In this document: piece by piece, positions 1-58,424 of the stretch
Layout: every line of letters begins with the position of its first letter
How positions within the stretch are numbered: the first letter of the stretch is position 1
Assembly (NCBI RefSeq): GCF_002105555.1
Contig: NZ_CP020612.1
Location: 895,001-959,000 of the forward strand
DNA length: 64,000 nucleotides
Direction: 5' to 3'
Origin: Paracoccus contaminans
GTDB taxonomy: Bacteria > Pseudomonadota > Alphaproteobacteria > Rhodobacterales > Rhodobacteraceae
Program-made: the position numbers and the translations under genes
The notes under the pieces: model-generated
The model's database searches: none
What the model was told of the DNA's origin: nothing
The model's input: the letters and a program-made list of their open reading frames with translations, nothing else

Positions 1-340
1 GCGCCACGATCCCCAAAAGCAGCGCCCCAAGCGGAATCCGCTCTGGCAGGAACCCCAGCCCGGGCAGATCGACCCCCGACATGTCCACGACCGTGCCGCC
101 CGCGCCCACCAGCTTCAGCACCGGCAGGAACATCAGGATGGTCATCCCCTCGGTCAGCGTGCCCAGGATCAGCAGCACCAGCCCGATGGTCAGCCGCCGC
201 CCTTCAAGATGCCTCAGCGCCTGCCAGAAGGATGCCAGATCCGCCCGGCCGGACGCGCCTTTCGGCGCAGCCTCCGCCTGGGGCGGCGGGGCGTCTTCGG
301 GCGGCGCGGCAGGGGGGGAGGAGGGCGATTGCGCGGACAT
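1..340 (-). CDS. ABC transporter permease/ATPase, N-terminal part (lasso peptide exporter, D protein)
   Basis: Only the first 113 codons lie in the window; the gene runs off the left edge. It starts at the ATG at 340-338. A Ser/Pro/Ala-rich stretch of about 35 residues precedes a short amphipathic segment (SFWQALRHLEGRRL) and a first membrane helix (LTIGLVLLILGTLTEGMTIL), followed by a second hydrophobic segment. This is the layout of the transmembrane half of an exporter-type half-transporter; the ATPase half is not visible. It follows the kinase gene by 11 nt on the same strand, so it probably ends the lasso operon and exports the mature peptide, as D proteins do in other lasso clusters. 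The export role is inferred from context. Confidence 0.7.
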   Translation of the reverse strand, partial: MSAQSPSSPPAAPPEDAPPPQAEAAPKGASGRADLASFWQALRHLEGRRLTIGLVLLILGTLTEGMTILMFLPVLKLVGAGGTVVDMSGVDLPGLGFLPERIPLGALLLGIVA

Positions 341-351
341 GCTCGCCACCC

Positions 352-1269
352 TCAGCCCTCGTCCAGGTCGCGGTCGATGGCGGCCCGGATCTCGGCGGCG
401 CGGTCAAGCCCCGCGGCCAGCAGCAGCCGGCGCGGCGGCGATTGCCGGGCCAGGCGCGCGGCATCGCGGAAATGCGTCGCCGCCGCATCCCCCTGCAACA
501 GATCCTCGCCAAAGCGCAGGCCATAGGAAAAGCGCATCACGGCGGGCAGCCGCTCGGCGGGCGCGATGGGCTGGACCGCGGCGGGGGCACCTTCGGGCGC
601 GCGTTCCAGCACATAGATGCGGCTGGCAGGCACCGGCTGCGACGCTACGCGGCCCGGGTCCAGCATCGCGCGGGCCTTGTCGATCTGGTCATGCACATGG
701 CCGCGGATCACCGCCCCGCCCGGCAGCAGCCGCGCGGCCTCGGCCGACAGCTTGACCTGCCCGAAACCGGGCAGCATCCGCCCCTGCGCGTCGATCGCGA
801 CCAGATCATCGGACAGAAGTTGCGCCCCCTGGGCCAGCAGCCCGGTCGCCGTGGTGGACTTGCCGGTGCCCTTGTCGGCCAGGAAGGCCAGCCCGTGCCC
901 GCGATAGACGACGGCGCTGGCATGCAGCACGAACAGCCCTTGCCGCCGCAACGCCTCGAACAGGACCGGGCCGAGCAGCGGAAAGGCCAGCAGGTCATCC
1001 GAAACGCCGGTCGCCCGCTCGATCCCGATCTGCCGCCCATCGGCCGAGACGGTAAAGGCCCCGACAGCCGGCCACCAGAACCACGTGCCCTCGGGGCCAA
1101 AGCGGCAGGCCGATTCCTCGCCCCGGAAGGGCAGCATCTGGGGCGCTTCGGCAATGGCCAGATCGGCGGGCGTGCCGGGCGCACCTTCGGCAAGTTCCGG
1201 CAGGGGGATGCCGGAGGTGATGGCAAGCCCGTAGGCACAATAGGCATGGACAGCGGAAAGGTCGGTCAT
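352..1269 (-). CDS. HPr-kinase-like serine kinase, putative lasso peptide tailoring kinase (K)
   Basis: A 305-residue protein related to the C-terminal catalytic domain of HPr kinase/phosphorylase. Residues 131-138 form a Walker A loop (ADKGTGKS), preceded by the family's HASAVV segment near 116-121. Residues 152-157 (LSDDLV) match the HprK region that follows the P-loop. No PTS HPr partner gene is nearby. Instead it sits between the lasso cyclase (22 nt gap) and the exporter on one strand. In the paeninodin family, such kinases phosphorylate the C-terminal Ser of the lasso precursor, and the precursor here ends in Ser. The start at 1269 is the ATG giving a family-like N-terminus, although no strong ribosome binding site is visible. 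The kinase fold is clear; the lasso substrate is inferred. Confidence 0.82.
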
Positions 1270-1291
1270 GGCTGGAGGGAAATCGCCTTGG

Positions 1292-3259
1292 TCAATCGAA
1301 AAGAGGACCGGGGCACAAAGGCGCCGCGGTTGCGAATGCAGCCCCTTGCGGGGCAGTGGGGGCAAGGGCGGCGGGCAGCGGCGCGGCGCCTGCCGGCGGT
1401 GCCGCCCAAGAGGCGCGCCGTTCAAGCCAGGCGGCCAGCCAGATGGCACGCCACAGGCGAAAGATGGCCTGCGCATCGGGGGCCGGGTCATGGTCCAGCT
1501 GCGCCAGGTCGGCGCGCAGCGTCGCGCCATCGACCCATCCTTGCAGGATTGCCGGACCGGCCCGCAACCGGGCAAGGCGGCCCGCGCAATCGCGGCGCAG
1601 GGCGGCATGGAAATCGGCGATGAAATCGGTCTTGTCGGCGCGCAGGCGCACCGCTTCGGGCAGCACGCCGCGCATCGCCTCGCGCAGCAGCGCGCGGGGC
1701 TGGCCATGGCGGATACGCGCGGCATCGGGCTGCCACAGGCAAAGCTCGACGACGCGGTGATCATAGAAGGGATAGAGCGGGACCACCCCGGCGCTGCGCG
1801 CCGCACGGTCCAGCACCTCGAAGGCGCCCGCGATCAGCGGCGCCGACAGCATCGCCGCATGATGGCGCACAGAGGCGGGCAGCGCAGGATCGCCGCCCTC
1901 CCCCGCCTCGGCCTGCGCCCGGACCCGCTCGACCAAGCCCGTTTCGACGGCCAGCCCCCGATCGACCAGGCTGCGCCAGGCGAAGGGATCGCCCCCGCCC
2001 CCCTCGGGCGCAAGCCGGCGGCCCAGCCGGGCAAAGCCCCGCCGCCCCTTCCAGGCCAGCAGCAGGCCCAGCGTCTCGCGGGGCGCGCTGCCGGTAAAGC
2101 GCGCATAGGCGCGCGCCAGGCCCAGCGCCTGCACCCATCGCCCCTCGCCCGCCAGCCGGGCGATGTCGGCAAAGGCGCCGCCGATGACCTCGTCACCGCC
2201 ATGGCCGTCCAGAACGCCCGTCGCCCCGGCCTGACGGGTGGCGCGGTAAAGCTGGGCGCTGCTTGCCATGCCGGGGGCAAAGAAGGGCTGGTCCTGCGCG
2301 TCCAGCTGCGGGTCCAGGTCGAAAAGCGCGTCCCCCACCTCTCCGGGCAGGGAAACGGGGGCCAGCCGCCCGCCGGCCCTTTCAAGGACCGCGTCGATGA
2401 AGAACCCCTCGTCCATCGCAGGATCGCGATAGCGCAGCGACAGCGCCGGGCGCGGCGCATCATCCCCGCCCCCCTCGACCGACAGCAACGACAGGCTGCT
2501 GGAATCCAGCCCCCCGCTGAGCATCGTGGCGGCGGGACCGGCGGCGCAGGCCTCGGCCGTGGCATGGGCGAGCGCCGCGCGCAGGGCCTGCGCGCCGTCC
2601 GCGCCCGCATCCGGCGGGGCCGCATCGGCCAGGCGGTACCAGGCGCGCACCGCATGGCGCGCATCCGGCCCGATCCGGGCCAGATGCCCCGGAGCGAGAC
2701 GCGTCACGCCCTCATAGGCGGTTGCCTCGGTGCTGGTCGGCCGGCCGCAAAGGAAATCGGCAACCCAGGCCCGGTCCACCTCTGGCTGCGCGCCCAGCCC
2801 GGCCAGGACGGTGGAAAGATCCTGCGCCACGATCATGCATCCGCCCCGGCTGGCATGAACCAGCGGGCGGACCCCGAACCGGTCGCGCACCAGCGTGAGC
2901 CCGCCAGTCCTGCGGTCATGGACGGCAAAGGCAAAGGCGCCGCAAAGGCGCCGGGCCGCATCCTCGCCCCAGCGCAGCCAGGCGGCAAGCACCAGATCGC
3001 CCGGCCCGGCCGCGGGTGCGGCGGACAGGCTGCGGCGCAGGTCGGCCAGGTCGGTCAGCCCCAGATCGCCCACCAGCGTCAATGGCCCCAGCCGTGCGGC
3101 AAGGCCCGGCCCGGCCTGCATCAGCAGCGCGCCCCCGCAAGGTTCGTCATGCAGGACAGGGCCGTGCCGTCGCGCAAGATCGCCCTTGACGCGCATCACG
3201 ATGCCCCGGTCCGCATCCGGGCCGATGATCGCGGCAAAGCGGTTCAGAGCATGGCTCAC
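1292..3259 (-). CDS. Asparagine-synthetase-like lasso peptide cyclase (C protein)
   Basis: A homologue of asparagine synthase B (655 residues) with an N-terminal class II amidotransferase-like domain (about 1-200) and a C-terminal ATP-pyrophosphatase domain. The pyrophosphatase loop SGGLDSS is at about 248-254. The N-terminus has no Cys at position 2, so it cannot act as a glutaminase, as in McjC. In lasso systems this enzyme adenylates the Asp/Glu side chain and closes the macrolactam with the core N-terminus. The GTG at 3259 is chosen because it overlaps the upstream stop as GTGA; a TTG two codons upstream (3265) is the alternative. It follows the B2 peptidase and precedes the kinase. Confidence 0.9.
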
Positions 3260-3714
3260 GGCCAAGCCTCGATCCCCGGCATGTCGAAATCATGCAGCGG
3301 GCGGTGCCCGGCATATTCGGCAGGGGTGCCGCCCAGCACGATCGTATCACCGGCCATCAGCCAGGCATGAGGGGCCAGCCCCTTGCCCGCGCCGGCCCGG
3401 ACGGGCACCGAAAGGCGAACGGTGGTGGCATAGCCGCGCTGCGCCAGCAGCAGCTGGCCGGCGCTGGCTTGGGTAAGGCAGGTGGCCCCCGGCACCAGCC
3501 GCGCGGCGTTGCGGACCGACCAGGCGACGGCGGCCAGTTCACTGTTCGGCACGGCACGGCCATGCGGGACGGGCACGCCTTCGATCATCCGGCGCAGCGC
3601 ATGATGGCGCCGGCGCAACAGATAGACGCGCACCCGCAAGATCGCCGCCAGGGCCTCGCCCAGCAGCACCGCGTCGCGGCCACTCAGGCGGCGAAGGCGC
3701 GCGAGGGCGGGCAT
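3256..3714 (-). CDS. Lasso peptide biosynthesis B2 protein (transglutaminase-like leader peptidase)
   Basis: A 152-residue transglutaminase-like cysteine peptidase of the standalone B2 type. The likely catalytic Cys is residue 79 (GATCLTQA), His is 116 (LAPHAWL), and Asp 123 follows (MAGD), giving the Cys-His-Asp triad of this family. It removes the leader from the precursor with the help of the separate RRE protein and works together with the cyclase. The ATG at 3714 lies 4 nt past the stop of the RRE gene, and the 3' end overlaps the cyclase start. The N-terminal 50 residues are Arg/Leu-rich helix, typical for B2. Length agrees with split B1/B2 systems. Confidence 0.9.
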   Translation of the reverse strand: MPALARLRRLSGRDAVLLGEALAAILRVRVYLLRRRHHALRRMIEGVPVPHGRAVPNSELAAVAWSVRNAARLVPGATCLTQASAGQLLLAQRGYATTVRLSVPVRAGAGKGLAPHAWLMAGDTIVLGGTPAEYAGHRPLHDFDMPGIEAWP

Positions 3715-3717
3715 TGG

Positions 3718-4029
3718 TCAGGCCGTCCTGACCAGGCCGTGCTGCATCATGTCGTCAAGCAGGCCGGCGATGTCGGGCCGGCAGACCTCAGGCGTCACGT
3801 CATATTCGCCGGCAATGCCGCGGGCCAGATCGTCCAATGTCGAGGGGGACGCCTCGATGGCACGCCAGACGCTGGCGCCGACCGGATCAAGGCTGAAATA
3901 GGTATTGCTGTGAAGGTCGAGGATGGCAATCCCCTCCTCCATGTCGCAGGCAACGCAGTCAGGTGAAGGGATATAGGCCAAAATTTGTACCTTCCGGCAG
4001 AAATCCACCGATCCAAGCTGAAGGATCAT
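3718..4029 (-). CDS. PqqD-like RiPP recognition element protein (lasso B1/E)
   Basis: A 103-residue PqqD/RRE-family protein. Residues about 25-50 form the beta-hairpin (ILDLHSNTYFSLDPVGASVW), where an acidic/aromatic strand pair is followed by the conserved G-x-x-x-W helix start. The rest is a winged-helix-like helical bundle. RRE proteins bind the leader peptide and bring it to the B2 peptidase. The precursor just upstream has the matching YxxPxLxxxG recognition motif. The ATG at 4029 abuts a 28-nt stem-loop that separates this gene from the precursor. The first about 20 residues are not typical of the family, so a downstream non-ATG start remains possible. Confidence 0.88.
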   Translation of the reverse strand: MILQLGSVDFCRKVQILAYIPSPDCVACDMEEGIAILDLHSNTYFSLDPVGASVWRAIEASPSTLDDLARGIAGEYDVTPEVCRPDIAGLLDDMMQHGLVRTA

Positions 4030-4057
4030 GGCAGGCGGTGGTCGCCCTCCGCCTGCC
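4030..4057 (-). promoter_or_regulatory. Intercistronic stem-loop between lasso precursor and biosynthesis genes
   Basis: A perfect 9-bp inverted repeat (GGCAGGCGG at 4030-4038, CCGCCTGCC at 4049-4057) encloses a 10-nt loop. It begins 10 nt after the precursor stop codon and ends right at the RRE start codon, with the only Shine-Dalgarno-like purine run (GGAGGG) in the loop and arm. There is no T-run, so it is not a classical intrinsic terminator. It may protect the short precursor mRNA or lower translation of the enzymes, giving an excess of precursor over enzyme. That role is inferred. Confidence 0.55.
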
Positions 4058-4067
4058 TTGTTATAGC

Positions 4068-4202
4068 TTACGAGAACGTCAGCTGGCTCTTGGGAGTGCC
4101 CACGGGGAACTGGCGGTCCAGGGCGTTACCGGTCGAGGCACCCTGGGTCAGGGCTTCAACCTTGCCGTGCACCCGGAGGGCGGGCGAAACATAGGTTTTC
4201 AT
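4068..4202 (-). CDS. Lasso peptide precursor (A)
   Basis: A 44-residue precursor starting at the ATG at 4202, with an AAAGG Shine-Dalgarno about 10 nt upstream. The leader has Tyr4, Pro7, Leu9 and Gly13 in the order YxxPxLxxxG, the motif bound by RRE proteins, and a conserved Thr19 at the penultimate leader position. Cleavage after Gln20 would leave a 24-residue core beginning GASTGNALD. Its Gly1 amine can be joined to the Asp9 side chain to form a 9-residue ring, followed by a 15-residue tail ending SQLTFS. Ring size, Thr at -2 and Gly at +1 all match class II lasso peptides. The C-terminal Ser is the expected target of the kinase encoded downstream. An in-frame ATG at 4265 lacks a ribosome binding site and is unlikely. 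Confidence 0.9.
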   Translation of the reverse strand: MKTYVSPALRVHGKVEALTQGASTGNALDRQFPVGTPKSQLTFS

Positions 4203-4398
4203 GGCTACACTACCTTTACGTGTAAAACACGGCGAAATCGCCGCAAACTGACATGGTATAAACAAGCCTGTTGGATCAACCTGTTCAAAAAGACAGGTCT
4301 GGTATGCTTTTTAACATTTATTAAAACTTATCAATTACTTATCTGTCGAGATCAAAAAGGGGTGGCTCATTCGTGATCGCCTCGCGCCAAAGGTGCGG
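4203..4398. promoter_or_regulatory. AT-rich divergent intergenic region (lasso operon promoter side)
   Basis: This stretch is much more AT-rich than its surroundings and separates the leftward lasso operon from the rightward exopolysaccharide genes. The - strand has several TTGAAC/TTGATC/TTGATA and TATACC/TTGTTT-like hexamers between 4250 and 4340, but no single pair with ideal 17-nt spacing stands out. A promoter for the lasso operon must lie here by position; the exact elements are unresolved. Confidence 0.4.
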
Positions 4399-4427
4399 TT
4401 GGAAAATTCAAGTTTTAGGTATATTTT
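4399..4427 (+). promoter_or_regulatory. Putative sigma70-type promoter for the exopolysaccharide genes
   Basis: TTGGAA at 4399-4404 and TATTTT at 4422-4427 are separated by exactly 17 nt; an overlapping TATATT at 4420 gives 15-nt spacing. The site is about 70 nt upstream of the sugar-phosphate transferase start in an otherwise AT-rich patch. It was identified by eye only. Confidence 0.35.
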
Positions 4428-4497
4428 ACCAGCCATGGCGCACGCAGGTCTGGCGGGCGGCTCCATGCGGGCGTGTTTATTCAGACAGGATGATTTT

Positions 4498-5217
4498 ATG
4501 CGAGTTGTACGTGCCAACGAGTCCGTTCCGGACTTCCTCGTCGAACGGGCGCCGCAGGCCGGTCTGTCGGCACGCGGGAGCGCGGCGGTCGCGGACGTGC
4601 CGCTGGGCGGGGCCGGAAAGCGTCTTCTCGACATCCTCCTGGTGATCCTGTCGCTGCCGCTGCTGTTGCCGCTGATGGCCGGCATTGCCGTCCTTCTCAA
4701 GCTGACCAGCCCCGGACCGCTGCTTTACGGGCACCGCCGGATCGGTTTTCAGGGCCGCGCCTTCCGCTGCTGGAAATTCCGCACCATGGTGGTCGATGGC
4801 GACAGGGTGCTGGATCGCTACCTGCAGGCTCATCCCCAGGAAGCGGCCGTATGGGCCGCCCAGCGCAAGCTGGACAACGACCCGCGCGTGACCCGCGTGG
4901 GCGCCGTGCTGCGCAAGCTGAGCCTGGACGAGCTTCCGCAGTTGCTCAACGTGCTGTCGGGAGAGATGAGCCTGGTGGGCCCGCGCCCGGTCGTTCAGGC
5001 CGAGCTGGACGAGCATTACGGCAGCGCCGCATCGGCCTATCTGTCCGCGCGTCCCGGCCTGACGGGGCTGTGGCAGATCAGCGGGCGCAGCGACACCACC
5101 TATGCCGAACGCATCCGCCTTGATTGCCGCTATGTGCGCCGCTGGACGCTGTGGGGCGATCTGCGCATCATCCTGCTGACGATCCCCGCGCTGGCCTTGT
5201 CGCGCGGCGCGCGCTGA
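4498..5217 (+). CDS. Undecaprenyl-phosphate sugar-phosphate transferase (WcaJ/ExoY-like)
   Basis: A monotopic polyprenyl-phosphate hexose-1-phosphate transferase of 239 residues that starts repeat-unit assembly on undecaprenyl phosphate. An N-terminal hydrophobic helix ([18 protein letters not shown], about residues 43-60) forms the membrane anchor. It is followed by the family motifs [44 protein letters not shown] and [16 protein letters not shown] 4498 is chosen because AGGA lies about 10 nt upstream; in-frame ATGs at 4393 and 4435 lack a good site. Its length (about 240) is that of the catalytic half-type (ExoY, RfbP C-terminal part). It opens the exopolysaccharide cluster. Confidence 0.92.
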
Positions 5218-5324: not shown

Positions 5325-6671
5325 ATGTCGGCGGCCCTGACAGATATCCGTCCTGCCGCCCCCCGGGCGCCGCGGAACAGACCGGCAGCCCGCCGGGGCT
5401 GGAGGCTGCATTATTCGCGCGACGTGGTGCTGGCATTCGTTGCGATCTTCGCTCTGGCCTTCATTCCGGTGCTGGGCGGGCGCGGGGCGCTGCTGTTCCT
5501 TGTGGCCGGGTCGCTCCTTGTCCTTTCCCGCCCGGGCGCGAGCCTTGCAGGGCTGCGCGAGGACTGGATGTTCATGCTGATGGGCCTTTGGTGCCTGATA
5601 TCCTTTATCTGGTCGGACTATCCCTCGCTCTCGCTGCGCTATGGCATCCAGCTCTGCCTGACGGTGGTGATCGGGTCGGCGATCATCAGCCGCCTGACAC
5701 CGACGGCCTTCGTCAAGATCCTGTTCGTCACAAGCTCGCTTGAAGGCATTGCCAGCCTGCTGTCCGGCCGGACCCGCGCCGACGGCATGGGCTATCTGGG
5801 CATCTATGCCAGCAAGAACGCCCTCGCCAGCGCGATGGCCATGCTGATCATCGTCGCGATAGCCGTCCTGATCGACAGGCACCTGCCCCGCCGGTGGCGC
5901 CTGCCGGCGCTGTTCAGCCTGCTGCTGGGTTCGATGCTGATGGTGATGGGCAAGTCGGCAGGCGCTCTGGTCAGCACCTTCGGCCTCGTCCTGTTCCTGG
6001 GGCTGATCCTGCTGCTGCAGCGCCTGGCGCCCTATGTCCGCCTGATTGCCATTACCCTGATGCTCGTGCTGGCGGTGTTCGTGGGGCTGGTCATCTCGTC
6101 AATGAGCGCCGAGCTGGCGCAGGGCTTTCTGGAGCTTACCGGCAAGGACATCACGCTGACCGGCAGGACCGACCTGTGGGCCGTCGCGCTGGAGCAGATC
6201 GCCCGCCACCCCCTGCTGGGCGTAGGCTTTCAGGCATTCTGGGTGCATGGCCAGCCGATGGCCGAACAGCTTTGGGCGCAGTTCGGCATCAACAGCCGCG
6301 CCGGCTTTCACTTTCACAACACGCTGCTGTCGAACACCGTCGAGATCGGCGTGATCGGCACGACGCTGGAAACGGTTCCCTTCTTTCTGGGCGTCTATCT
6401 TTCGGTTGTCTGGGTGCTGCGCAGCCGTTCGGCTGCTTCGATCTTCTTTGCCCTGTTCATGGTCCGGCTGGTCATACTGATGTCGATCGAGGTCGCGTAT
6501 TTCTATCAGTTCGGCACCGTCACCATCACGATCATGGCGGCACTGCGCTATGGGCGCGCAGCCAGGCGGAACGGGCGCAGCGCCCTGCCCCGCCATGCCC
6601 GCCCGGCGCCCATTCCTGCCGCGCGCGCCGCCCTGCGCCGGGCGCCGGCAGGCCGGCCCGGCCCCGCCTGA
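5325..6671 (+). CDS. O-antigen ligase/polymerase family protein (ExoQ/Wzy-like)
   Basis: A 448-residue multi-pass membrane protein with about ten hydrophobic helices. A large periplasmic loop at about 265-345 holds the Wzy_C-type signature (LTGRTDLWAVAL, HPLLGVGFQAFW, HFHNTLLS). Such proteins polymerise repeat units of exopolysaccharides (ExoQ) or ligate O-antigen; next to ExoY-, ExoV- and flippase-like genes, a polymerase role is most likely. The C-terminal about 40 residues are Arg/Pro/Ala-rich and probably cytoplasmic. A 107-nt gap separates it from the transferase. ATG 5325 has only a weak upstream purine stretch. Confidence 0.87.
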   Translation: MSAALTDIRPAAPRAPRNRPAARRGWRLHYSRDVVLAFVAIFALAFIPVLGGRGALLFLVAGSLLVLSRPGASLAGLREDWMFMLMGLWCLISFIWSDYPSLSLRYGIQLCLTVVIGSAIISRLTPTAFVKILFVTSSLEGIASLLSGRTRADGMGYLGIYASKNALASAMAMLIIVAIAVLIDRHLPRRWRLPALFSLLLGSMLMVMGKSAGALVSTFGLVLFLGLILLLQRLAPYVRLIAITLMLVLAVFVGLVISSMSAELAQGFLELTGKDITLTGRTDLWAVALEQIARHPLLGVGFQAFWVHGQPMAEQLWAQFGINSRAGFHFHNTLLSNTVEIGVIGTTLETVPFFLGVYLSVVWVLRSRSAASIFFALFMVRLVILMSIEVAYFYQFGTVTITIMAALRYGRAARRNGRSALPRHARPAPIPAARAALRRAPAGRPGPA

Positions 6672-6709: not shown

Positions 6710-7810
6710 TCAGGAAGCCTGCCGGTTCATGCCCAAGGCCGCGGCGGCCCAGTTGCGCACTGCGGTCGTCCGATCCTCTGTAAGGCGCGAGAACACCGCC
6801 GCCCATGCGACGGCAACCGCAGGAAGCAGCAGCACCAGCGCCCATGCGCCGGGGCTGGCGGGCAGCCTTGCCTCGGGCACGATGAAATTGCACAGGAACA
6901 CCATGAGGGGCAGATGCGTGGCATAAAGCGAATAGGATGACCGCGCCCCGAAACGCGCCAGCAGGCCCAACCCCCTGGCCCGCCCGAACGAGGAATTCAT
7001 CCCCAGCCCGAGAAACAGCGCGAAACACGCCGCCAATGCGAGGTCGCGCAGGGCAGGATGCAGCGGCACCAGCTTCAACGCGACGATGGCAAGGCAAAGC
7101 AGCGCAAGGGCCGCTGCGGGCCAGGCCCAGTGGACATGGCCCGCAGCGCGGAAACGCTCGGCCAGCACATAGACGCCGCCCCCCATCATCCAGCAGGCGA
7201 ACAGAGGCAGGCTCGGCAGAAAGGGCAACGCAGCCGCAGCTGCCAGAATTCCTGCAAGGTTGCGCGAGCGCAGCGCGCAATAGGCGAGCGGGAAATAGAC
7301 ATAATACCAGAATTCGCAGGCGATCGACCAAAGCGCCCCGTTCGAGCCGAAAGAAGGCACCGCGATGTCCTGCAGGAACAACACATTTCCAGCGAAGGTG
7401 CCGAATGACAGGCGAGAGGACACGTCATAGGCCACCGAAACCGCCCCCTGCGTTCCGGCATAGAGCCGAGAGGGAAAGATCGTGCTGCCCGCCAGGTCGA
7501 GGCAGATGCCCATGACAAGGGCGGGCAGCAGCACGACCCACAGGCGGGCGCAGCGGGCGATCATGTAGTCCCTGAAGGAAAAGGCCGGCCCTGCCCGGAC
7601 CACCGACCGGACGATCCAGAAGCCCGAAAGGACAAAGAACACCACCACCGCGTTGTGCCCCTGGGTGGTCAGCATGCTGAGCGCCCGGTGCACAGACCCC
7701 GGCGTCAGGGGGCGATCGATGATCAGCTGCTGCACATGCGAGATGACCACCAGAAAGGCGGCCACGGTCCGGATCACGTCGATGAAATCGTAATGCGGCC
7801 TATCGGCCAT
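6710..7810 (-). CDS. Acyltransferase 3 family membrane protein (ExoZ/OafA-like)
   Basis: An integral membrane O-acyltransferase of 366 residues. It opens with the family signature (YDFIDVIRTVAAFLVVISHV, residues 7-26, including the catalytic-type His) and continues with about ten membrane helices and the FFVLSGFWI motif. It probably acetylates or succinylates the exopolysaccharide, as ExoZ/ExoH do. ATG 7810 is chosen for its AGGA site and family-like N-terminus. A GTG at 7861, which overlaps the stop of the upstream GH16 gene as GTGA, is an alternative adding 17 residues. It is co-directional with the GH16 and glycosyltransferase genes on the - strand. Confidence 0.9.
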   Translation of the reverse strand: MADRPHYDFIDVIRTVAAFLVVISHVQQLIIDRPLTPGSVHRALSMLTTQGHNAVVVFFVLSGFWIVRSVVRAGPAFSFRDYMIARCARLWVVLLPALVMGICLDLAGSTIFPSRLYAGTQGAVSVAYDVSSRLSFGTFAGNVLFLQDIAVPSFGSNGALWSIACEFWYYVYFPLAYCALRSRNLAGILAAAAALPFLPSLPLFACWMMGGGVYVLAERFRAAGHVHWAWPAAALALLCLAIVALKLVPLHPALRDLALAACFALFLGLGMNSSFGRARGLGLLARFGARSSYSLYATHLPLMVFLCNFIVPEARLPASPGAWALVLLLPAVAVAWAAVFSRLTEDRTTAVRNWAAAALGMNRQAS

Positions 7811-7857
7811 GCCGGCGCGATCCTGTGCAAGGCCGCCGGGCGCCATGACGCTCGCCG

Positions 7858-8646
7858 TCACCGACAGGCCAGCGACTGGGGAAACAGGCAGTCCGCCCCT
7901 TGCGGGGTCCAGGCGATCCAGTCCACCTCATAGTCCAGCGGCCCGGCATTTGCATCCTGCCGGCCCATCCAGTCGGTCAGGGTCGTCGTGCTCCAGAATG
8001 ACAGGAACAGTTGCTGGGGATGGGTTGGCAGCTCGATCCCCGGGGTGGTTTCGTGGACGATCCGCCCATCGACGAACCAGCGGATGCGATCAGGTGCCCA
8101 GTCGATGGCAACAATGTGAAACGCCTTGTCGAAGGGCGGATCGACGGGAACGACCCCGCCCTGCGCGGGCTTGCCATCCACGAAGGTGTTGAAGCTCGCC
8201 TCGGCGGGGTTGCGGGTCAGGATCTCGATGTCGATCTCGTCATGCGGCCCCTTGCCGGATGGCTTGGAAAAGGTGAACAGCGCAGCGTTCTTGCCCGATC
8301 CGCGCGGGGTGCGGATGCGCGCCTCGATCAGCCCGTATTGGACAAATCCCCGCGTGCGGATCTCGCTGCAAAGCGGACGCGGCTTCTCCCCTCCGCCGGG
8401 CAGGTGGGTCAGGCGCAGCATCCCCCCCTGCACCCGGACGGCGCGCCGCGACCAGGTGCAATCCTGGTGGGGACCATTGGTCCAGCCATCCGAGACATAC
8501 CACCGCCCGAGGTCGAGCCGGTCGAAATCGTCGCGAAAGCCCTGGGTCATCGGTTGCGCCTCGGGCCCGGCCGCCGCCGCTGCGGCCGGCAGCGCGCAAA
8601 GAAATCCCAGGCAAGCCGCAGCGGTCAGGAAAAACGGACGAAACAT
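7858..8646 (-). CDS. Secreted glycoside hydrolase family 16 endoglycanase (ExoK-like)
   Basis: A 262-residue secreted enzyme. Residues 1 to about 24 form a signal peptide (MFRPFFLTAAACLGFLCALP followed by an Ala run). The GH16 jelly-roll catalytic motif ExDxE is seen as HDEIDIEIL, with the usual preceding tract GLIEARIRTPRGSGKNAALF. GH16 enzymes in such clusters (ExoK of Sinorhizobium) cut nascent polysaccharide to control its length. ATG 8646 is taken because it yields the signal peptide; upstream in-frame ATGs only add Pro/Arg-rich sequence. It overlaps or abuts the acyltransferase downstream. Confidence 0.9.
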   Translation of the reverse strand: MFRPFFLTAAACLGFLCALPAAAAAAGPEAQPMTQGFRDDFDRLDLGRWYVSDGWTNGPHQDCTWSRRAVRVQGGMLRLTHLPGGGEKPRPLCSEIRTRGFVQYGLIEARIRTPRGSGKNAALFTFSKPSGKGPHDEIDIEILTRNPAEASFNTFVDGKPAQGGVVPVDPPFDKAFHIVAIDWAPDRIRWFVDGRIVHETTPGIELPTHPQQLFLSFWSTTTLTDWMGRQDANAGPLDYEVDWIAWTPQGADCLFPQSLACR

Positions 8647-8772
8647 GGCTGGCCTGTGCTTTTGCGCCCCTGCGGGCATGGGCCCTTGGGCTGGAATGGG
8701 CGGGCGGTGACGGGGCGGGAAAGGGAACGCGCTGTCCTGGGCGCAGCCCCGCGCAAGGCGCCTGTGCACCGC

Positions 8773-9732
8773 TCAGGCCGCCATGCGCGTCAGGACGGCG
8801 CCGACCGACGGATGGACGCGCCCCAGATTTCTGACGGCCAGCCGCTTGAGGCGCGCCTTGGCGCCCGGATCGCGCGGAACGCCCGCCGCGCCGATCCCGG
8901 CCTTGCGCAGCGCCTCAAGCCGCCTGTCCATGGGAATGCGCAAGACCCCCCCGGCCAGGAAGGTTTCGCACAGTGCGGGCGGCAGGTTTTTCCACACGGT
9001 CCTCTGCAAGGCCCCAAGCGAAGCCTTGAGGTTCAGCTCGCGCCGCAGCCAGCCTGTGTTCAGGCCATTGTTGCGGGTGGTGGACTGTTCGTCTTGGGCC
9101 CATATGGCCAGCTTGTCATGGGCGATATAGACAGGCTCGGCGACAAGGCATGTGCGCAGATATTCCTCGAGCGTCGGAACGGTGTCCACGCGCACGGCCA
9201 GTTCGTTCCTGATGCGGCGGGACCAGAACACCGCACCGTTGGAAATGCCGATCGCACCGAAGATGGCCAGGCGCATCTCGGCGGGCGCATAGGCGCGTTG
9301 GTCATAGAGATTGTCAAAGACGCCCACATCGCCGATCCGGCTGTGATCTGTCCGGCTGTCATGTTCGACAACCTGGTTGATCTGGCAGATGGCCAGTTTC
9401 TCTTGTTCCAGAATATCGCGGCCGAGCGACAGGAAACCCGGCCGGATCTGGTTGTCATCCTCGAGCATGTAGAAATAGTCGGCGCGATAGGGGTTTTCAC
9501 GAAGAAAACAGTCGTCGAGATTGCGCACCATGAATTTCTGCGGACGGTTGGCGACATAGCGGATGCGCGGATCGCCGATGTCCTCGACCACGGCCTGCGC
9601 GCTGCTGTCGGGACAGTCGTCGCGCACCTCGCAGATCCAGTCCGAATGTGTCTGCGCCTGCAGGCAGGCCATGGCACGCCGCACCAGGTCGGGGCGGCGA
9701 TAAGTGGGCATTCTCACCAAAACCAGCGGCAT
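8773..9732 (-). CDS. Glycosyltransferase family 2 protein
   Basis: A 319-residue GT-A fold glycosyltransferase. The N-terminus has the GT2 opening (LVLVRMPTYRRPDLVRRAMAC) and an acidic metal/nucleotide motif (YFYMLEDDNQI, about residues 86-96). The C-terminal third is basic with amphipathic helices, as in exopolysaccharide transferases. ATG 9732 has TAGGAT about 8 nt upstream; an upstream in-frame ATG at 9819 would add 29 residues without family support. It probably adds one sugar of the repeat unit. It is co-directional with the GH16 gene, 126 nt away. Confidence 0.85.
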   Translation of the reverse strand: MPLVLVRMPTYRRPDLVRRAMACLQAQTHSDWICEVRDDCPDSSAQAVVEDIGDPRIRYVANRPQKFMVRNLDDCFLRENPYRADYFYMLEDDNQIRPGFLSLGRDILEQEKLAICQINQVVEHDSRTDHSRIGDVGVFDNLYDQRAYAPAEMRLAIFGAIGISNGAVFWSRRIRNELAVRVDTVPTLEEYLRTCLVAEPVYIAHDKLAIWAQDEQSTTRNNGLNTGWLRRELNLKASLGALQRTVWKNLPPALCETFLAGGVLRIPMDRRLEALRKAGIGAAGVPRDPGAKARLKRLAVRNLGRVHPSVGAVLTRMAA

Positions 9733-10923
9733 GGAGGATCCTACCTGATGACGATACCTGTTTGTGACGAGGAAAGCACAATGCCGCATCCTGTTCTTTT
9801 CGGCAGGACGCCGCGCCACTCTTGCGCCCCTTCATCGCGCCCCTCGCCATCCGGCGCCCGAAAGGGGCAGGCAGCCTTTTTGACAAAGGGACGTCCACAG
9901 ACCTGAGGCACAGCAGGCCCGGCATGGGCGGGCCGCGCAAGGCAATCAACCACTCAGCGCATTTCGGGGGCGGAACTCGGCTTTCAGGCGATGTCCGATT
10001 CCCGCCCGGGGCCGGGCAAGCAGAGCCGCATTGCCGGCACCGGCCTCAAACCCGCAAGCGGTCTGCCTTGCGTGACCCGGTGCAACCCAATTCTTTTGGG
10101 GCCCGCGAAGCGCCAGCCGCTTCAGAAAGAGAAAGGCAGAAAAGCGGTTCGATCCGCGCGCCACTGGCCGAGCTGCCCCGGCGAAGGGCAAGGACACTTG
10201 AAATAGCTTTCCCTCCGATCCCGGCGGATCGGATCGACCAGACTGATTGAATTAGCTTTTGAATGTTGCCGTCATGGTGGAAAAGTCTGGCCGATCAATC
10301 CGCGCCTTTCTTCGGCGCAGCCAGCCCCTGTCCAGATTGCAGCAATCAGGAAAGGCCGCGCAATCGGCCCCGCGCTGCGCGATCCAGTCGATGCCGGTAT
10401 GGCAGCCCGCGCCCGGACCTGCGCCCGGCTGATCCAGCACCGTCCACAAGATGCGGGCCCAGTCCTCACGGCCGACGCGTCTGCTTTGGGCAGGCACGGC
10501 GGAGCCATCGTCCTTGGTGACCGTTCGGATGGTCGCGCGCGGCGGCGGATGCCGGGCAGTGATGGGCTCCAGCGCCCGCGAGAATTCGCCCTTCACACTG
10601 CTGAAGGGGATGACAATGCCAGCCTTCTCGAAAAGGCCTCATGGATGACGGGCCGCCCTTGCGCAAAGCGCATGGCTGCACTGCGCAACGGGATAGCAGT
10701 TGATCCTGCCAGCATCGGCGCATGTCCGCTTTCATCGAGCTGGCAAAATGGACAGGGCGGCGCCTGCAATGCATCCTCGCAATCAGTTTGCTTGACCCTC
10801 CTGGCCTGCTGTCGCATGAGCAGCGGGAAAAAAGCTGTCGCCCCTTCATGATGGCCGGGTTCCTGCAAGCCGCGTCATCGGCCGACCCGTTTTTGCCCCG
10901 ATCCGAGTGTGCCGCCGCCAGCC
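9733..10923. other. 1.2-kb region without a supportable gene
   Basis: Open frames exist on both strands (for example 10252-10596 and 10593-10868 on -, 9822-10250 on +), but none shows a recognisable domain, a good start site or protein-like composition. Base composition is more mixed than in the flanking genes. It lies between divergent exopolysaccharide genes and must contain the upstream regions of the glycosyltransferase (-) and flippase (+). It may hold remnants of lost genes, but nothing identifiable is left. Confidence 0.5.
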
Positions 10924-12408
10924 ATGCCCAGCCCGCCGCCCCCCGCCCCCGAAGATCTGGCCCATTTCAGCAGCGGCCGCGCGCGGCGGGCCTTTACCGG
11001 CGTGCTGTGGTCGGGGGTCAATGCGCTGGTGCCGACGATTTCGGGACTGGTCGTGTTCCTGTTCGTCTCGCGCATCCTGGAACCGGCGGAACTGGGCTAT
11101 GTGTCGCTTGCCGTCGCGGTCGTGGGCACCTTGGGGGCGTTTTCGCCCGCGGGCTTCGGCGATGCGCTGGTGCAGCGATCGGCGCTGGACGGGCGCCACC
11201 TCGACACGACCTTCTGGCTGTGCCTGGTCTGGGGGGGCGCGCTTTACCTCGGCACGGTCCTGCTTGCCGGCCCCATCGCCGCCCTGATGCGCGAGCCGAT
11301 GCTCAACAGCCTTCTGCCGGTGGTCGGCCTGCGCCTGATCCTGGATCAAGCGGCGGTCGTCCCCTCGGCCCTGCTGAGCCGCAGCATGCAGTTCCGCTCC
11401 CTTGCTTTGCGCACGCTGATTGCCTCGGTCATGTCCATGATCGTCTGCCTTGCGGTCCTGCAGGCCGGATACGGAATGTGGGCGCTGGTGGCATCGCAGC
11501 TGGTGGGGGCGATCGTGGTCTGCGTGGTCAGCTGGATGGCGGTCGCCTGGCGGCCAGGCCGCGGGATGGATCGCGCGGCCCTGCGCGATCTGTCTCATTT
11601 CGGGGGCTTTGCGTCGGGCAGCCGGCTGATCAGCACGATCAATGTGGATCAGCTTCTGATCGGCCCGCTGATCGGCAGCACGGGCCTGGGCCTGTTCTCG
11701 TTCGCGCGGCGCATCTTCCAGATGCTGAACGACGTGCTGACCGGCGCGCTGGCCGGGGTCGCCTATCCGCTGCTGTCGTCGATGCAGAACGAGCCGGACA
11801 AGCTGCGCGAGGCCTATCTTGCCACGACGTTCCTGTCCTCGGTGCTGGCCTTTCCGTGTTTCGTCGGGCTGGCGCTGATCGCGGAAGACCTGATCCCGCT
11901 GCTGTTCGGCCCTCAGTGGACGGGGGCAGTGCCGGTGCTGCAATGGTTCTGCGCGATCGGGCTGCTCAGCTGCATCGGCATCCTGCAGGCCGCGCTGATC
12001 CGCGCCAAGGGCCGCGCCGACTGGTGGATGTGGTACCAGCTTGTCCAGCAGATCCTGACAGGCGCCGTGATCGTGCTGCTGGCCCGAATGGGAATCGTCG
12101 CGGCAATTGCCGGCATCGCGATCAAGACCTGGCTTGTCTGGCCCTTCGTGGCCCGCTTTGTCGGGCGGCTGCTGGATCTGGATATCCGCAGCTACATGGC
12201 TCAGTTCGCATTGCCCTTGGCGGGATGTGCCGCCATGGCGGCGGCAACAAGCGCGCTCGATCACGGCACCGCCCTGTCGGGGGCCGCCCTGCTCTGCACG
12301 AAGATCGCAGTCGGCGCGGCGGTCTATGCGGCGGTGCTGGTGCTGTTGGGCCGCAAACGCCTGCTCGAGCTTCGGGCGGTGATCGGCGCAGGCCGGCGGC
12401 GCGGATGA
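10924..12408 (+). CDS. Polysaccharide flippase (Wzx/ExoT-like, MATE/MVF superfamily)
   Basis: A membrane protein of 494 residues with about 12-14 helices. It is of the polysaccharide-transport (PST) type, with the lipopolysaccharide-exporter features FVSRILEPAELGYVSLAVAV near the N-terminus and FASGSRLISTINVDQLLIGP in the middle. It is expected to flip lipid-linked repeat units across the inner membrane for the Wzy-like polymerase encoded upstream. ATG 10924 is used; a GTG at 10909 is also in frame, and neither has a strong ribosome binding site. It is the first of three + strand genes (flippase, glycosyltransferase, pyruvyltransferase). Confidence 0.88.
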   Translation: MPSPPPPAPEDLAHFSSGRARRAFTGVLWSGVNALVPTISGLVVFLFVSRILEPAELGYVSLAVAVVGTLGAFSPAGFGDALVQRSALDGRHLDTTFWLCLVWGGALYLGTVLLAGPIAALMREPMLNSLLPVVGLRLILDQAAVVPSALLSRSMQFRSLALRTLIASVMSMIVCLAVLQAGYGMWALVASQLVGAIVVCVVSWMAVAWRPGRGMDRAALRDLSHFGGFASGSRLISTINVDQLLIGPLIGSTGLGLFSFARRIFQMLNDVLTGALAGVAYPLLSSMQNEPDKLREAYLATTFLSSVLAFPCFVGLALIAEDLIPLLFGPQWTGAVPVLQWFCAIGLLSCIGILQAALIRAKGRADWWMWYQLVQQILTGAVIVLLARMGIVAAIAGIAIKTWLVWPFVARFVGRLLDLDIRSYMAQFALPLAGCAAMAAATSALDHGTALSGAALLCTKIAVGAAVYAAVLVLLGRKRLLELRAVIGAGRRRG

Positions 12409-12421: not shown

Positions 12422-13300
12422 ATGACTGCGCGGCTTGTCTTTGTCATACCTGTGCGCCACCATCGGTCGGTTGCGGACTGGACGGTGGTGCAGCGAAACC
12501 TTGCGGCGACGCTGCAATCTGTCAGCGCGCAGACGGCACCCAACTGGGAATGCATCGTGGTGGCGAACACCGGCGCCCCGCTGCCGACCATGCCTGCGGG
12601 CTGCACCGTCCGCCATGTCGATCTGCCTTTGCCACAGATGCCGGACCGCATGCATGACCTTGAGGCGTATTATGACGCTGTCCGGCATGACAAGGGGCTG
12701 CGCCTTTATCATGGCGTGCGCGACATTTCGCCCGATCATCATGTCATGGTGGTCGATTTCGACGACTTCGTCAGTTGCCGGCTGGCCCAGATCGTAGCCG
12801 CCCGCCCGGACGCCCCTGGCTGGAGCGTGGAGCGGGGCTATGTCTGGTCAGGGGGAAACCTGCTGTTTCTGCATCGCGACTTTCACCGGCTGTGCGGAAC
12901 ATCCCATATCGTGCGGCGCGATCTTTACGGCAGCCTCGAACGCGGCGGCCGCCCCGACATGGGCGCGATCAAACGCTGGCTGGGCAGCCACATCTTCATC
13001 CATGACGACCTCGCCCGCGCAGGAACGCCCTTGATGCCGCTTCCCTTTCCGGGGGCTGTCTACCGGATCGGAAATCCCGGTTCGACCAGCGGAACCGGCG
13101 GCTTGCTGTCGGCGATGATCCCGCCCCGCAGCATTCTGACGCAACCGCATCGTGCCTTGTCCCGGCTGCGTCATTTCCGGCGCGTGACCGATGCCATACG
13201 CCGAGAGTTTTCGCTGCCCGCCGCGCCGTCAGACAGCCGGGCCGTTGCGGCCATGCGCCAGACCGGCACAAAGGCCCGCAAAGACAGGAGCCGCACATGA
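12422..13300 (+). CDS. GT-A type glycosyltransferase, exopolysaccharide cluster
   Basis: A 292-residue protein with a GT-A nucleotide-sugar binding start (RLVFVIPVRHHRS, residues 4-16) and an acidic metal motif (MVVDFDDFVS, about residues 109-118). These are seen in galactosyl-/glycosyltransferases of exopolysaccharide loci. GAGGAGA lies 11 nt upstream of ATG 12422, which fixes the start. It follows the flippase by 13 nt and overlaps the pyruvyltransferase as ATGA. The donor and linkage cannot be read from the sequence. Confidence 0.75.
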   Translation: MTARLVFVIPVRHHRSVADWTVVQRNLAATLQSVSAQTAPNWECIVVANTGAPLPTMPAGCTVRHVDLPLPQMPDRMHDLEAYYDAVRHDKGLRLYHGVRDISPDHHVMVVDFDDFVSCRLAQIVAARPDAPGWSVERGYVWSGGNLLFLHRDFHRLCGTSHIVRRDLYGSLERGGRPDMGAIKRWLGSHIFIHDDLARAGTPLMPLPFPGAVYRIGNPGSTSGTGGLLSAMIPPRSILTQPHRALSRLRHFRRVTDAIRREFSLPAAPSDSRAVAAMRQTGTKARKDRSRT

Positions 13301-14187
13301 AGCTGAGTTATTACAAGGAGGAGGTTCCGAACTTTGGTGACGAACTGAACCCCTGGCTTTGGGACCGGCTGCTGCCGGCAGGGTTTCTGGACGACGACCC
13401 GTCCGAACTTTTCATCGGCATCGGCTCGATCCTGTGGAATACCTGGCCGCGCACCTCGCTCAAGCATGTCATCGGGTCTGGCTATGGCGGCTATACGGCC
13501 GCGCCCGATCTTCACGATGGCAGCTGGAATGTGGTTTTCGTGCGCGGTCCCCGTACCGCCGAACGTCTGGGGCTGCCGCCGCAGACGGCCATCTGCGACA
13601 GCGCGATCCTGCTGCGGACGACCGACCTGCCCGAACCGGCGGGAGGGATCGACATCGGGTTCATGCCGCATTTCGAAAGCCTTCAGCGTGGTTTCTGGGC
13701 CGAGGCGTGCAGGCTCGCCGGGATCCGGCTGATCGACCCGCGCGGCGATGTGGAAACGGTGCTGTCGGAAATCCGCGGCTGCCGGATGCTCGTGACCGAG
13801 GCGATGCACGGCGCCATCGTGGCCGATGCCGTCCGCACGCCATGGGTCGGGGTGCGGCCCCTGCATTCCAGCCATCATACCAAATGGCTGGACTGGTCCG
13901 AGGCCTTGGGGATCGATCTGCGGATGCACGCCCTGCGGCCATCCAGCCTGCTCGAGGTGGACATGACGCTTGTCCGGCCGGGAAAGATGCATGGACCCAA
14001 TGGGAACAGATTGAACAAAAGCCTTCTTGCAGCACCCTTCAACAAGGCTCTTACCTACATGGCGGCGCAGCGGCTGCGCCAGATCGCCCGGCAAGAGCCG
14101 CAGCTCAGCAGCGATGCGAATATCGAACGCGCGACCGAGCGCGCCCATGCGGCGCTGGAGCGGTTCGTGTCCGCGCGCAAAGCCTGA
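13297..14187 (+). CDS. Polysaccharide pyruvyltransferase (ExoV-like)
   Basis: A 296-residue member of the polysaccharide pyruvyl transferase family (CsaB/ExoV). Recognisable blocks are PNFGDELNPW near the N-terminus, FIGIGSIL, VRGPRTAERLG and VTEAMHGAIVADAVRTPWVGV. The last holds the conserved EAMHGAI-type motif for PEP-derived ketal transfer. It would put a pyruvate ketal on a terminal sugar, as ExoV does on succinoglycan, giving an acidic polymer. It starts at an ATGA overlap with the glycosyltransferase and is followed by a hairpin terminator. Confidence 0.9.
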   Translation: MKLSYYKEEVPNFGDELNPWLWDRLLPAGFLDDDPSELFIGIGSILWNTWPRTSLKHVIGSGYGGYTAAPDLHDGSWNVVFVRGPRTAERLGLPPQTAICDSAILLRTTDLPEPAGGIDIGFMPHFESLQRGFWAEACRLAGIRLIDPRGDVETVLSEIRGCRMLVTEAMHGAIVADAVRTPWVGVRPLHSSHHTKWLDWSEALGIDLRMHALRPSSLLEVDMTLVRPGKMHGPNGNRLNKSLLAAPFNKALTYMAAQRLRQIARQEPQLSSDANIERATERAHAALERFVSARKA

Positions 14188-26648: not shown

Positions 26649-27683
26649 ATGAACGACCTGACCAAGATCCCCGTGACCGTCATCACGGGCTTTCTGGGCG
26701 CCGGCAAGACCACGCTGATCCGCCACCTGATGGCCAACCCTCAGGGCCGCCGGCTGGCCGTGCTGGTCAACGAATTCGGCACCGTCGGCGTCGATGGCGA
26801 CATCCTGAAATCCTGCGCCGACGAGAACTGCCCGGCCGAGAACATCGTCGAGCTGGCCAATGGCTGCATCTGCTGCACCGTTGCCGATGATTTCATCCCC
26901 ACGATCGAGGCGCTGATGGCCCTGCCACGGCGGCCCGATCACATCCTGATCGAAACCTCGGGGCTGGCGCTGCCCAAGCCGCTGTTGCGGGCCTTTGACT
27001 GGCCGGCGATCCGTTCGCGCATCACGGTGGACGGGGTGATCGCCGTCGCCGATGCCGAGGCGGTGGCGGCGGGCCGCTTTGCCCCCGACGAGGCTGCGGT
27101 CGACGCCCAGCGTGCCGCGGACGACAGCCTTGACCACGAAACGCCGCTGTCCGAGGTGTTCGAGGATCAGATCGCCTGCGCCGACCTTGTGCTGCTGACC
27201 AAGCCCGACCTGGCCGGCGCGGACGGCCTCGCCGCCGCCCGCGCGGTGATCGCCGCCGAGGCGCCGCGCCCGCTGCCTGTCATCGTGGTATCCGAAGGCG
27301 CAGTCGATCCGCGCGTCGTGCTGGGCCTGAACGCCGCCGCCGAGGATGACCTTGACGCCCGCCCCAGCCACCATGACGGCGCGGACGATCACGAACATGA
27401 CGACTTTGATTCCGCCGTGATCGAGCTGCCCGAGATCGCCGACCCCGCCGACCTGACCGCGCGCATCGAGACGCTGGCGCGCGACCATCGCATCCTGCGC
27501 GTCAAGGGCCACGTCGCCGTCGCGGGCAAGCCCATGCGCCTGCTGGTGCAGGCGGTCGGCGCGCGGGTGCGCCACCAGTATGACCGCCTCTGGGGCGACG
27601 CGCCGCGCGCCTCGCGGCTGGTGGTGATCGCCCAGCATGACGACATCGACCCGGCCCTGATCCGGCAGGTGCTGGGGGCCTGA
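26649..27683 (+). CDS. cobW: CobW family GTP-binding metallochaperone
   Basis: A 344-residue G3E GTPase that delivers Co2+ for corrin metallation. The P-loop is GFLGAGKTT (14-22), the metal motif GCICC is at 72-76, and LLTKPDL is the guanine-specificity region. A His/Asp-rich stretch (SHHDGADDHEHDDFD) in the C-terminal third is a second metal site. GCAGGAG precedes ATG 26649. Its stop overlaps the cobN start as TGATG, which couples it to the chelatase it serves. Confidence 0.94.
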   Translation: MNDLTKIPVTVITGFLGAGKTTLIRHLMANPQGRRLAVLVNEFGTVGVDGDILKSCADENCPAENIVELANGCICCTVADDFIPTIEALMALPRRPDHILIETSGLALPKPLLRAFDWPAIRSRITVDGVIAVADAEAVAAGRFAPDEAAVDAQRAADDSLDHETPLSEVFEDQIACADLVLLTKPDLAGADGLAAARAVIAAEAPRPLPVIVVSEGAVDPRVVLGLNAAAEDDLDARPSHHDGADDHEHDDFDSAVIELPEIADPADLTARIETLARDHRILRVKGHVAVAGKPMRLLVQAVGARVRHQYDRLWGDAPRASRLVVIAQHDDIDPALIRQVLGA

Positions 27684-36221: not shown

Positions 36222-36634
36222 GGGTCGCGGGGATGGGGTTCCGATCCGCAGCCACGCTGGCTGACCTGCGCGCCGCGCTGCGCCTGGCCGAGGATCGCGC
36301 CGGGCCGGCACAGGCGCTGGCCACCGCTGCGGCCAAGGCGGATGCGCCCGCGCTGCTGGCGCTGGCGGCCGAACGCGGGCTGCCCATCATCGCCGTTGCG
36401 GTCGCGGGCCGCGCCACGCCCACGCAATCGCCCGCATCCCTTGCCGCCCGCGGCACAGGCAGCGTGGCCGAGGCCGCCGCGCTGGCCGCGGCCCGGCCCC
36501 CTGCCCGGCTGCTGACGCCGCGCCTGATCGCGGGCGCCGCCACCTGCGCCATGGCCCAATCCGATCCCGGCCCCCAGCCCCCAGCAGGGCGGGCCGGGGC
36601 CGGGGGCGCCATCCCCGACAAGGAAGAACCATGA
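36218..36634 (+). CDS. cobE: CobE/CbiG C-terminal family cobalamin biosynthesis protein
   Basis: A 138-residue protein of the CobE family, equivalent to the C-terminal domain of CbiG. Family features are the start [19 protein letters not shown], then [19 protein letters not shown] and [21 protein letters not shown]. Its role in the aerobic pathway is not well defined. The last about 25 residues are Pro/Gly/Ala-rich. ATG 36218 overlaps the cobL stop and its own stop overlaps cobM. An in-frame ATG four codons upstream is also possible. Confidence 0.88.
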
Positions 36635-52915: not shown

Positions 52916-52930
52916 GGCGGCTCAGCGATA

Positions 52931-52953
52931 CTATACAACTAGACATTTGATAG
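52931..52953. promoter_or_regulatory. phnF-phnG divergent control region with imperfect palindrome
   Basis: CTATACAACTAG and ACATTTGATAG make an imperfect inverted repeat (CTAT...ATAG ends) in the only AT-rich part of the 81-nt gap. The - strand reads TTGTATAGTAT, a plausible -10 for phnG. It is the likely site where the GntR protein PhnF represses the operon. This is inferred from position and symmetry. Confidence 0.45.
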
Positions 52954-52996
52954 CGGTGCGCGGCTGTCCCGTCCAGCCGGCCTGCGTGAATTTTGG

Positions 52997-56533: not shown

Positions 56534-56587
56534 GGTCGGTCAGCGCCGCCCGCGCCCCGTTGCCGGGAACGCGGGCGGCAGGGGGCC

Positions 56588-58357: not shown

Positions 58358-58424
58358 ATGTCGTCCGCCTCGGTTCGCGCAAGAAAGCGTTGCGGTTCCC
58401 TTGAGGGCCGCAGACGACAACTGC

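Follow-up and report, generated by a model that had tools for sequence, protein, structure and literature searches.

What does a lasso peptide pathway with its own peptide kinase do in the middle of an exopolysaccharide (EPS) locus? The question is raised by a 64,000-nucleotide stretch of Paracoccus contaminans DNA (contig NZ_CP020612.1, positions 895,001 to 959,000, forward strand; hereafter the window), which opens with a cluster for such a peptide at 1-4202. Our answer is that the kinase-type lasso pathway is probably an optional accessory of one EPS system. A role of the peptide tied to EPS, which we infer from linkage alone, also seems rather probable; that relatives keep cassette and EPS genes together points to a peptide in the service of the polymer and away from an ordinary antibiotic. 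The argument starts from what the genomes display: the genes, their motifs and order, their embedding among EPS genes, and the coupled presence of the lasso genes, a nucleotidyltransferase gene (N) and the EPS type.

The cluster runs A, B1, B2, C, K, D, all on the minus strand, with open reading frames (ORFs) that overlap or are tightly spaced. A preliminary description of the window had listed the same six co-directional genes, and all are present with matching families and motifs:

1..349, minus strand: lasD, ABC exporter, first 116 codons, running past the window edge
352..1269, minus strand: lasK, HPr-kinase-like peptide kinase, 305 aa
1292..3259, minus strand: lasC, asparagine-synthase-type lasso cyclase, 655 aa (Asn_synthase 9.8e-34)
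3256..3714, minus strand: lasB2, leader peptidase, 152 aa (NF033537 53.4 bits, cut-off 33)
3718..4029, minus strand: lasB1, RRE (PqqD-like) leader-binding protein (PqqD 6.9e-17)
4027..4060, minus strand: RNA hairpin between A and B1 (61-nt fold of −25.8 kcal/mol, z −3.38; none of 200 shuffles folds as well)
4068..4202, minus strand: lasA, precursor of 44 aa (leader 4143-4202, core 4071-4142, stop 4068-4070)

The same A-to-D order recurs in related genomes, each time beside a recognisable precursor, which makes the cassette more than a chance arrangement; judged by its sequence, it is almost certainly a lasso peptide biosynthetic cluster. The cluster had been called complete-looking, which is not fully accurate: D lies mostly outside the window (622 aa in full, G000:C1:893481-895349; ABC_tran 7.6e-31 over the whole gene) and N lies beyond it. 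LasC scores 232 bits against the lasso-cyclase model NF033535, under its cut-off of 525, and its SGGLDS is invariant across 24 aligned C proteins; its more likely start is the GTG at 3259, overlapping the B2 stop. LasB2 also matches Transglut_core3 (1.3e-17). Of the Cys-His-Asp triad claimed for it, Cys79 is present in every one of 26 aligned B2 sequences and His116 in 25 of them; no particular Asp could be assigned. The start of lasB1 may be TTG 3981 instead of ATG 4029, because the homologue in Paracoccus sp. MC1862 begins there and ATG 4029, the first possible start, sits in the hairpin. An alignment of nine loci gave no clear shared regulatory site upstream beyond short patches, and no isopeptidase or TonB-dependent receptor was matched by Pfam among the neighbouring proteins scanned, a subset of the ORFs near the cluster.

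The precursor has the features by which lasso precursors are recognised: a YxxP leader, Thr at −2, Gly1 and an Asp or Glu at 7-9. Its leader motif YVSPALRVHG fits YxxPxLxxxG and narrowly passes NF033521 (19.3, cut-off 19), T19 precedes Q20, and the core is GASTGNALDRQFPVGTPKSQLTFS, in which a predicted Gly1-Asp9 ring would leave a 15-residue tail; the 44 residues, motif, penultimate leader Thr, ring and tail had all been read correctly before. The core had also been said to be unrecognised, which is literally true, but it belongs to a family of 283 precursors, and the idea of an orphan core was rejected. These are the proteins matched at E <= 0.01 by a family profile (A1) built from 15 precursors, with those of L012, L015, L021 and L022 left out; its seeds mostly end in TFS, so that it favours TFS-ended matches. 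Among 120 listed matches 116 were parsed, of which 114 have a 24-residue core; the four unparsed precursors all end in TFS. G1, D9, T22, F23 and S24 occur in 114 of 114 of these cores, and F12 and T16 in 113. The precursors beside related B2 genes likewise follow one common pattern. Among the matches listed, the closest relative of lasA is P0086 (86% identity over the precursor), and the named members are alphaproteobacterial except for Rivularia, a cyanobacterium whose precursor has an extended tail, and a single unclassified 'bacterium'. A sequence search of the PDB with the precursor profile gave, apart from weak matches to unrelated proteins, nothing but leader peptides from other lasso or fused systems (TbiA leader, E 0.01). 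No identical or near-identical characterised core was found in a literature search, whose reach did not include the original phosphorylation papers.

LasA ends in Ser (Ser44 of the precursor, Ser24 of the core), and LasK resembles the kinases that act on such a residue. Its match to Pfam Hpr_kinase_C is 22.8 bits (7.5e-5), under the cut-off of 33.3, and a PDB sequence search matched HprK weakly (E 0.047); the AlphaFold2 model has a mean pLDDT of 90.9. The motif H116, K133/K137, D154-D155 is invariant in 24 of 24 aligned K proteins. According to the available part of PMC9266682, PadeK, ThcoK and SyanK add one or more phosphates to the C-terminal Ser of the precursor, and the His-Lys-Asp-Asp motif, which is present in LasK, is essential in PadeK and ThcoK. 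LasK and the invariant C-terminal Ser together predict a phosphorylated product, and by analogy with these kinases the lasso peptide is very probably phosphorylated at its C-terminus. The preliminary description drew no conclusion from K, and missed N and the EPS embedding. The leaderless, minus-water mass that it proposed to look for has a predicted monoisotopic value of 2460.24 Da and stands as the base, but K and the C-terminal Ser would shift it by +79.97 per phosphate (2540.21, 2620.17).

N is a seventh pathway gene outside the window. First noticed on a plasmid of Paracoccus sp. MC1862, it encodes a nucleotidyltransferase of NTP_transf_5 (PF14907, 2.6e-29), the family to which PsmN of the pseudomycoidin pathway presumably belongs. 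In P. contaminans it encodes 395 aa (G000:C1:881125-882312) and lies about 11.2 kb past the end of lasD. It was found on the contig of the precursor, within 17.2 kb, in all 16 cassette-bearing genomes, and in 14 of 14 further genomes; in 13 of these it lies inside or touches the fetched locus by its coordinates, the contig being presumed the same. Among 125 Paracoccus genomes PF14907 occurs in eight, exactly the eight with a full lasso precursor (Fisher 8.5e-13; like all the co-occurrence tests here, this one ignores kinship). With N linked and co-occurring, A-B1-B2-C-K-D as the full pathway was rejected; a nucleotidyltransferase gene belongs to it, as in pseudomycoidin. The residues KG, DxD and later D/H residues are kept in 22 aligned N sequences. 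A structure predicted for N from Mesorhizobium (pLDDT 84.8) resembles nucleotidyltransferase folds (MenT1, E 3e-4; LnuA, E 3.4e-3; ANT(2''), E 5.5e-3) and weakly FKRP (E 0.14, prob 0.98), and a PDB sequence search with N gave no match.

The cassette and N are embedded in an EPS locus. To the left of lasD lie a GNVR/Wzz chain-length protein, glycosyltransferases, then N, then a GH16-RTX protein; to the right, the EPS genes begin divergently from lasA. The genes that flank N, and those within the window, are:

L067:11685-13970, minus strand: GH16 protein with RTX repeats, flanking N
L067:140-8671, plus strand: very long ORF of 2843 aa, flanking N, which we take to resemble cyclic beta-glucan synthase
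4393..5217, plus strand: polyprenyl-phosphate sugar transferase, divergent from lasA (Bac_transf 2.3e-61)
5325..6671, plus strand: Wzy / O-antigen-ligase type polymerase (Wzy_C 2.3e-17)
6710..7861, minus strand: EPS acyltransferase (Acyl_transf_3 5.1e-26)
7858..8769, minus strand: GH16 glycanase, ExoK-like (Glyco_hydro_16 5.7e-29; NF052392 ExoK 261 bits, E 1e-77, under the cut-off of 350)
8773..9819, minus strand: family 2 glycosyltransferase (Glycos_transf_2 2.7e-7)
10909..12408, plus strand: Wzx-type flippase (Polysacc_synt_3 3.3e-69)
13297..14187, plus strand: polysaccharide pyruvyl transferase (PS_pyruv_trans 1.1e-8)

Judging by its homologues, the sugar transferase probably starts at 4498. 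From its gene set the locus would be succinoglycan-like. The segment 10345-10626 on the minus strand looks like a fragment of a glycosyltransferase of family 2 (39% to the MC1862 protein over 95 residues) and is possibly a relic.

EPS genes adjoin the cassette in related Paracoccus loci, and stand beside it in other orders in Falsirhodobacter, Cereibacter, Salipiger, Pseudaestuariivita, Mesorhizobium, Aurantiacibacter and an alphaproteobacterial metagenome-assembled genome. The linkage was measured in a family set of 25 loci, nine of the 24 initial loci (L011, L014, L015, L020, L023-L027) having been excluded as near-duplicates, short contigs or loci with no recognised precursor. The controls were 20 other alphaproteobacterial B2 loci, one each, from 32 other genomes with a B2 match; the control stretches L094, L095, L100 and L108 are shorter than 20 kb, and the profile centre of L105 is near the stretch end. 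Within 10 kb, 21 of the 25 family loci and none of the 20 controls have at least two EPS kinds (profiles of nine kinds; Fisher 4.9e-9), a comparison that favours the family loci, from which the profile seeds came; the EPS matches of two counted sphingomonads (G904, G907) are weak, at 1e-8 to 1e-9. One EPS kind was near three of the 20 control loci. With Pfam Bac_transf, 15 of the 25 family loci and none of the 20 controls have a match no farther than 12 kb away (1.2e-5), a limit chosen after the distances were known, the nearest control being at 13.2 kb. An MC1862-type GNVR/Wzc protein at E <= 1e-100, a limit set within the search itself, occurs in 16 of the 125 Paracoccus genomes, all eight lasso genomes among them (1.1e-8).

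Eight of these 16 carriers of the EPS type are without the cassette, indicating that the cassette has been lost or gained independently. The Arc7-R13 plasmid has syntenic EPS genes with neither cassette nor N: about 50 bases lie between the blocks that flank N in MC1862, and the cassette site holds other genes. None of A, B1, B2, C and N was found in the EPS-locus stretches of the eight lasso-less Paracoccus genomes. The gap from GNVR to the sugar transferase is 0.8-1.0 kb in four of them (G509, G442, G395, G455); the site is off the contig in G467, and no sugar-transferase match was found in G452 and G411. The remaining genome, G500 (L124 5035-6160), has K and a remnant of the 3' end of D between a small EPS gene and the sugar transferase, which on its sequence is a decayed lasso cassette. 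The GNVR gene of G500 is split by an in-frame stop.

Other precursor types were seen beside these. One (L061 about 9889-10101, plus strand; L045 1432-1620, minus strand; L037 1363-1650, plus strand) has the same leader motif and an LTFS or YTFS end, with a Gly-rich core that has no Asp or Glu at 7-9 and so would form no lasso ring. Strong matches to it occur in two of the 125 Paracoccus genomes (G417 with the lasso cassette, G458 without) and in six metagenomic relatives; no B2, C or K match was found within the stretches L061 and L062. These precursors are perhaps linear phosphopeptides served by a distant kinase, like those of Bacilli described below. The control loci L095, L098 and L108 have further precursor types, some in two copies, for instance with cores ending in SREATS/SRECAS or QCGHASWGC.

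The pathway can be pictured as follows, with the phosphorylation site, the order of steps and the substrate of N modelled on the paeninodin, ThcoK, SyanK and pseudomycoidin pathways. B1 would bind the YxxPxLxxxG leader, K would phosphorylate the C-terminal Ser24 of the precursor with one or more phosphates, B2 would cleave after Gln20, and C would close Gly1 onto Asp9 round the tail. N, with its nucleotidyltransferase fold, may modify the phosphoserine further (with a nucleotide, hexose or similar), and D would export the product. The exported peptide would then act on or with the EPS of the surrounding genes, in chain length, matrix assembly or surface retention. A bolder variant, which we consider distinctly improbable, is that the phospho-lasso is joined via its C-terminal phosphoserine to the EPS or a lipid-linked precursor, with N as the joining or activating enzyme; the weak match of its fold to FKRP is to a phospho-alditol transferase. 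If this were true, a lasso would cap or anchor EPS chains or set their length, and the literature searched describes no ribosomal-peptide-glycan conjugate of this kind.

Several points weigh against an EPS accessory, besides the seeding of the profiles and the late choice of the 12 kb limit given above. Linkage is not function, and the cassette is distributed sporadically (8 of 125 Paracoccus), as a dispensable weapon might also be. The Salinarimonas cassette has 0 EPS genes in 33 kb; G147, whose contig measures 6.8 kb, has 0 EPS kinds; one kind each is present in G048 and Sphingobium. In nine close loci the ratio of nonsynonymous to synonymous polymorphism (pN/pS) is 0.58 for the core and 0.41 for the leader; the core is not the more constrained of the two and is as variable as the leader or more so, and the conservation therefore concerns particular positions and not the whole core. 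The Salipiger core ends in Thr. K is present in 13 and N in six of the 20 non-EPS control loci, which means that K and N alone do not imply EPS; EPS linkage as a general trait of kinase lasso clusters was rejected, since none of the 13 controls with K has two EPS kinds. A cluster that this strain does not express or can no longer use is very improbable: the window edge and the draft state of the relatives leave some room for this, but all genes are open and their active-site residues conserved.

The patchy distribution would be natural for an ordinary secreted lasso antibiotic or signal, travelling with EPS genes as exchangeable surface loci and having no effect on EPS. Many lasso peptides of other clusters are antibacterial, one copy of the cassette is on a 41.8-kb plasmid together with its EPS genes, and the cassette has decayed in place in G500. 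We nevertheless think this rather unlikely. It predicts Paracoccus cassettes without this EPS type, of which there are none among the eight; two separate sites, of cassette and N, are jointly empty in the Arc7-R13 EPS plasmid; the control lasso loci are not EPS-linked; and the 114 relatives hardly vary in ring position, TFS tail or core length, unlike a diversifying weapon. The association could also come from shared descent of one island, the EPS locus being an insertion hot spot in which an ancestor acquired the cassette a single time, along with the EPS type. Measured against MC1862, our lasso genes and our EPS genes have diverged to a similar degree (C 59%, K 71%, D 75%; GNVR 58%, glycosyltransferases 69-72%), as if inherited together, and the tests are not kinship-corrected. 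But the linkage in other gene orders in Mesorhizobium, Falsirhodobacter, Salipiger, Pseudaestuariivita, Aurantiacibacter and the metagenome-assembled genome needs retention over long times, and half of the 16 EPS carriers have no cassette; descent without function is therefore improbable as the explanation.

The closest described systems are the paeninodin-type clusters (PadeK, ThcoK, SyanK), which according to the sections of PMC9266682 at hand share the split B1/B2, cyclase, HPr-like kinase with His-Lys-Asp-Asp, C-terminal Ser of the precursor and ABC exporter; SyanA is itself a precursor from an alphaproteobacterium. The Paracoccus family differs in its core (G1-D9 ring, F12, GTP, LTFS tail), in the separation of N from the cassette by EPS genes, and in the EPS embedding of the cassette. 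Pseudomycoidin offers an analogous pair, PsmK and PsmN, a kinase and nucleotidyltransferase acting on the C-terminal Ser, and the same part of PMC9266682 states that PsmN is required for hexoses on the phosphoserine. A figure in the accessible part of PMC11705953 draws the paeninodin clusters of Neobacillus with nucleotidyl transferases. Sphingocin and other isopeptidase-type alphaproteobacterial clusters share the conserved leader Thr and, in the portion of PMC11006600 available, have an isopeptidase and a TonB receptor, sphingocin being without an exporter. In contrast, the Paracoccus cluster has K, D and N, with no isopeptidase or TonB receptor among the neighbours scanned.

A link between kinase-type lasso clusters and polysaccharides as such is already in print for Bacilli: in the part of PMC13381572 available, paeninodin and linear polyphosphorylated peptide (LPP) clusters lie in capsular polysaccharide loci and share with ours an HprK-like kinase, an NTP transferase, an MsbA-like exporter and the co-localisation with polysaccharide genes. 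The LPP clusters described there have no cyclase and a signal-peptidase-like protease, whereas the Paracoccus cluster has a cyclase and is not of that type. Ours is also a family of another phylum with other cores, and the comparison with and without the cassette inside one EPS type, the coupled loss of N and the control loci go beyond the Bacilli work. PMC13381572 was the one paper bearing on the EPS link among the literature matches listed; the available parts of PMC9723273 and PMC11006600 report no lasso-EPS link. The alphaproteobacterial family, its EPS linkage and the coupled loss were in no report among the literature matches listed, a coverage that mostly excludes subscription papers.

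Phosphorylated lasso peptides have no established role, as PMC13381572 states for those of Bacilli, mentioning biofilm as speculation. Natural comparisons make the role testable in Paracoccus, where the EPS locus occurs with and without the cassette, and N is present or absent along with it. A peptide that shaped the EPS would mean that lasso peptides not only kill but can also have structural or regulatory tasks in the bacterial matrix. Since two phyla show the parallel, kinase-type lasso peptides may be linked to surface polysaccharides more generally.

Elsewhere in the window, a tRNA-Leu (gag) at 59037-59128 on the minus strand lies opposite a long ORF (57575-62020), which is unlikely to be a real gene. 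A CobN-type chelatase (27683-30955) and a tetrapyrrole methylase (36631-37404) belong to a cobalamin region. In a phosphonate (C-P lyase) region at about 46656-57502, PhnJ, PhnI and a phosphonate-binding protein were confirmed.

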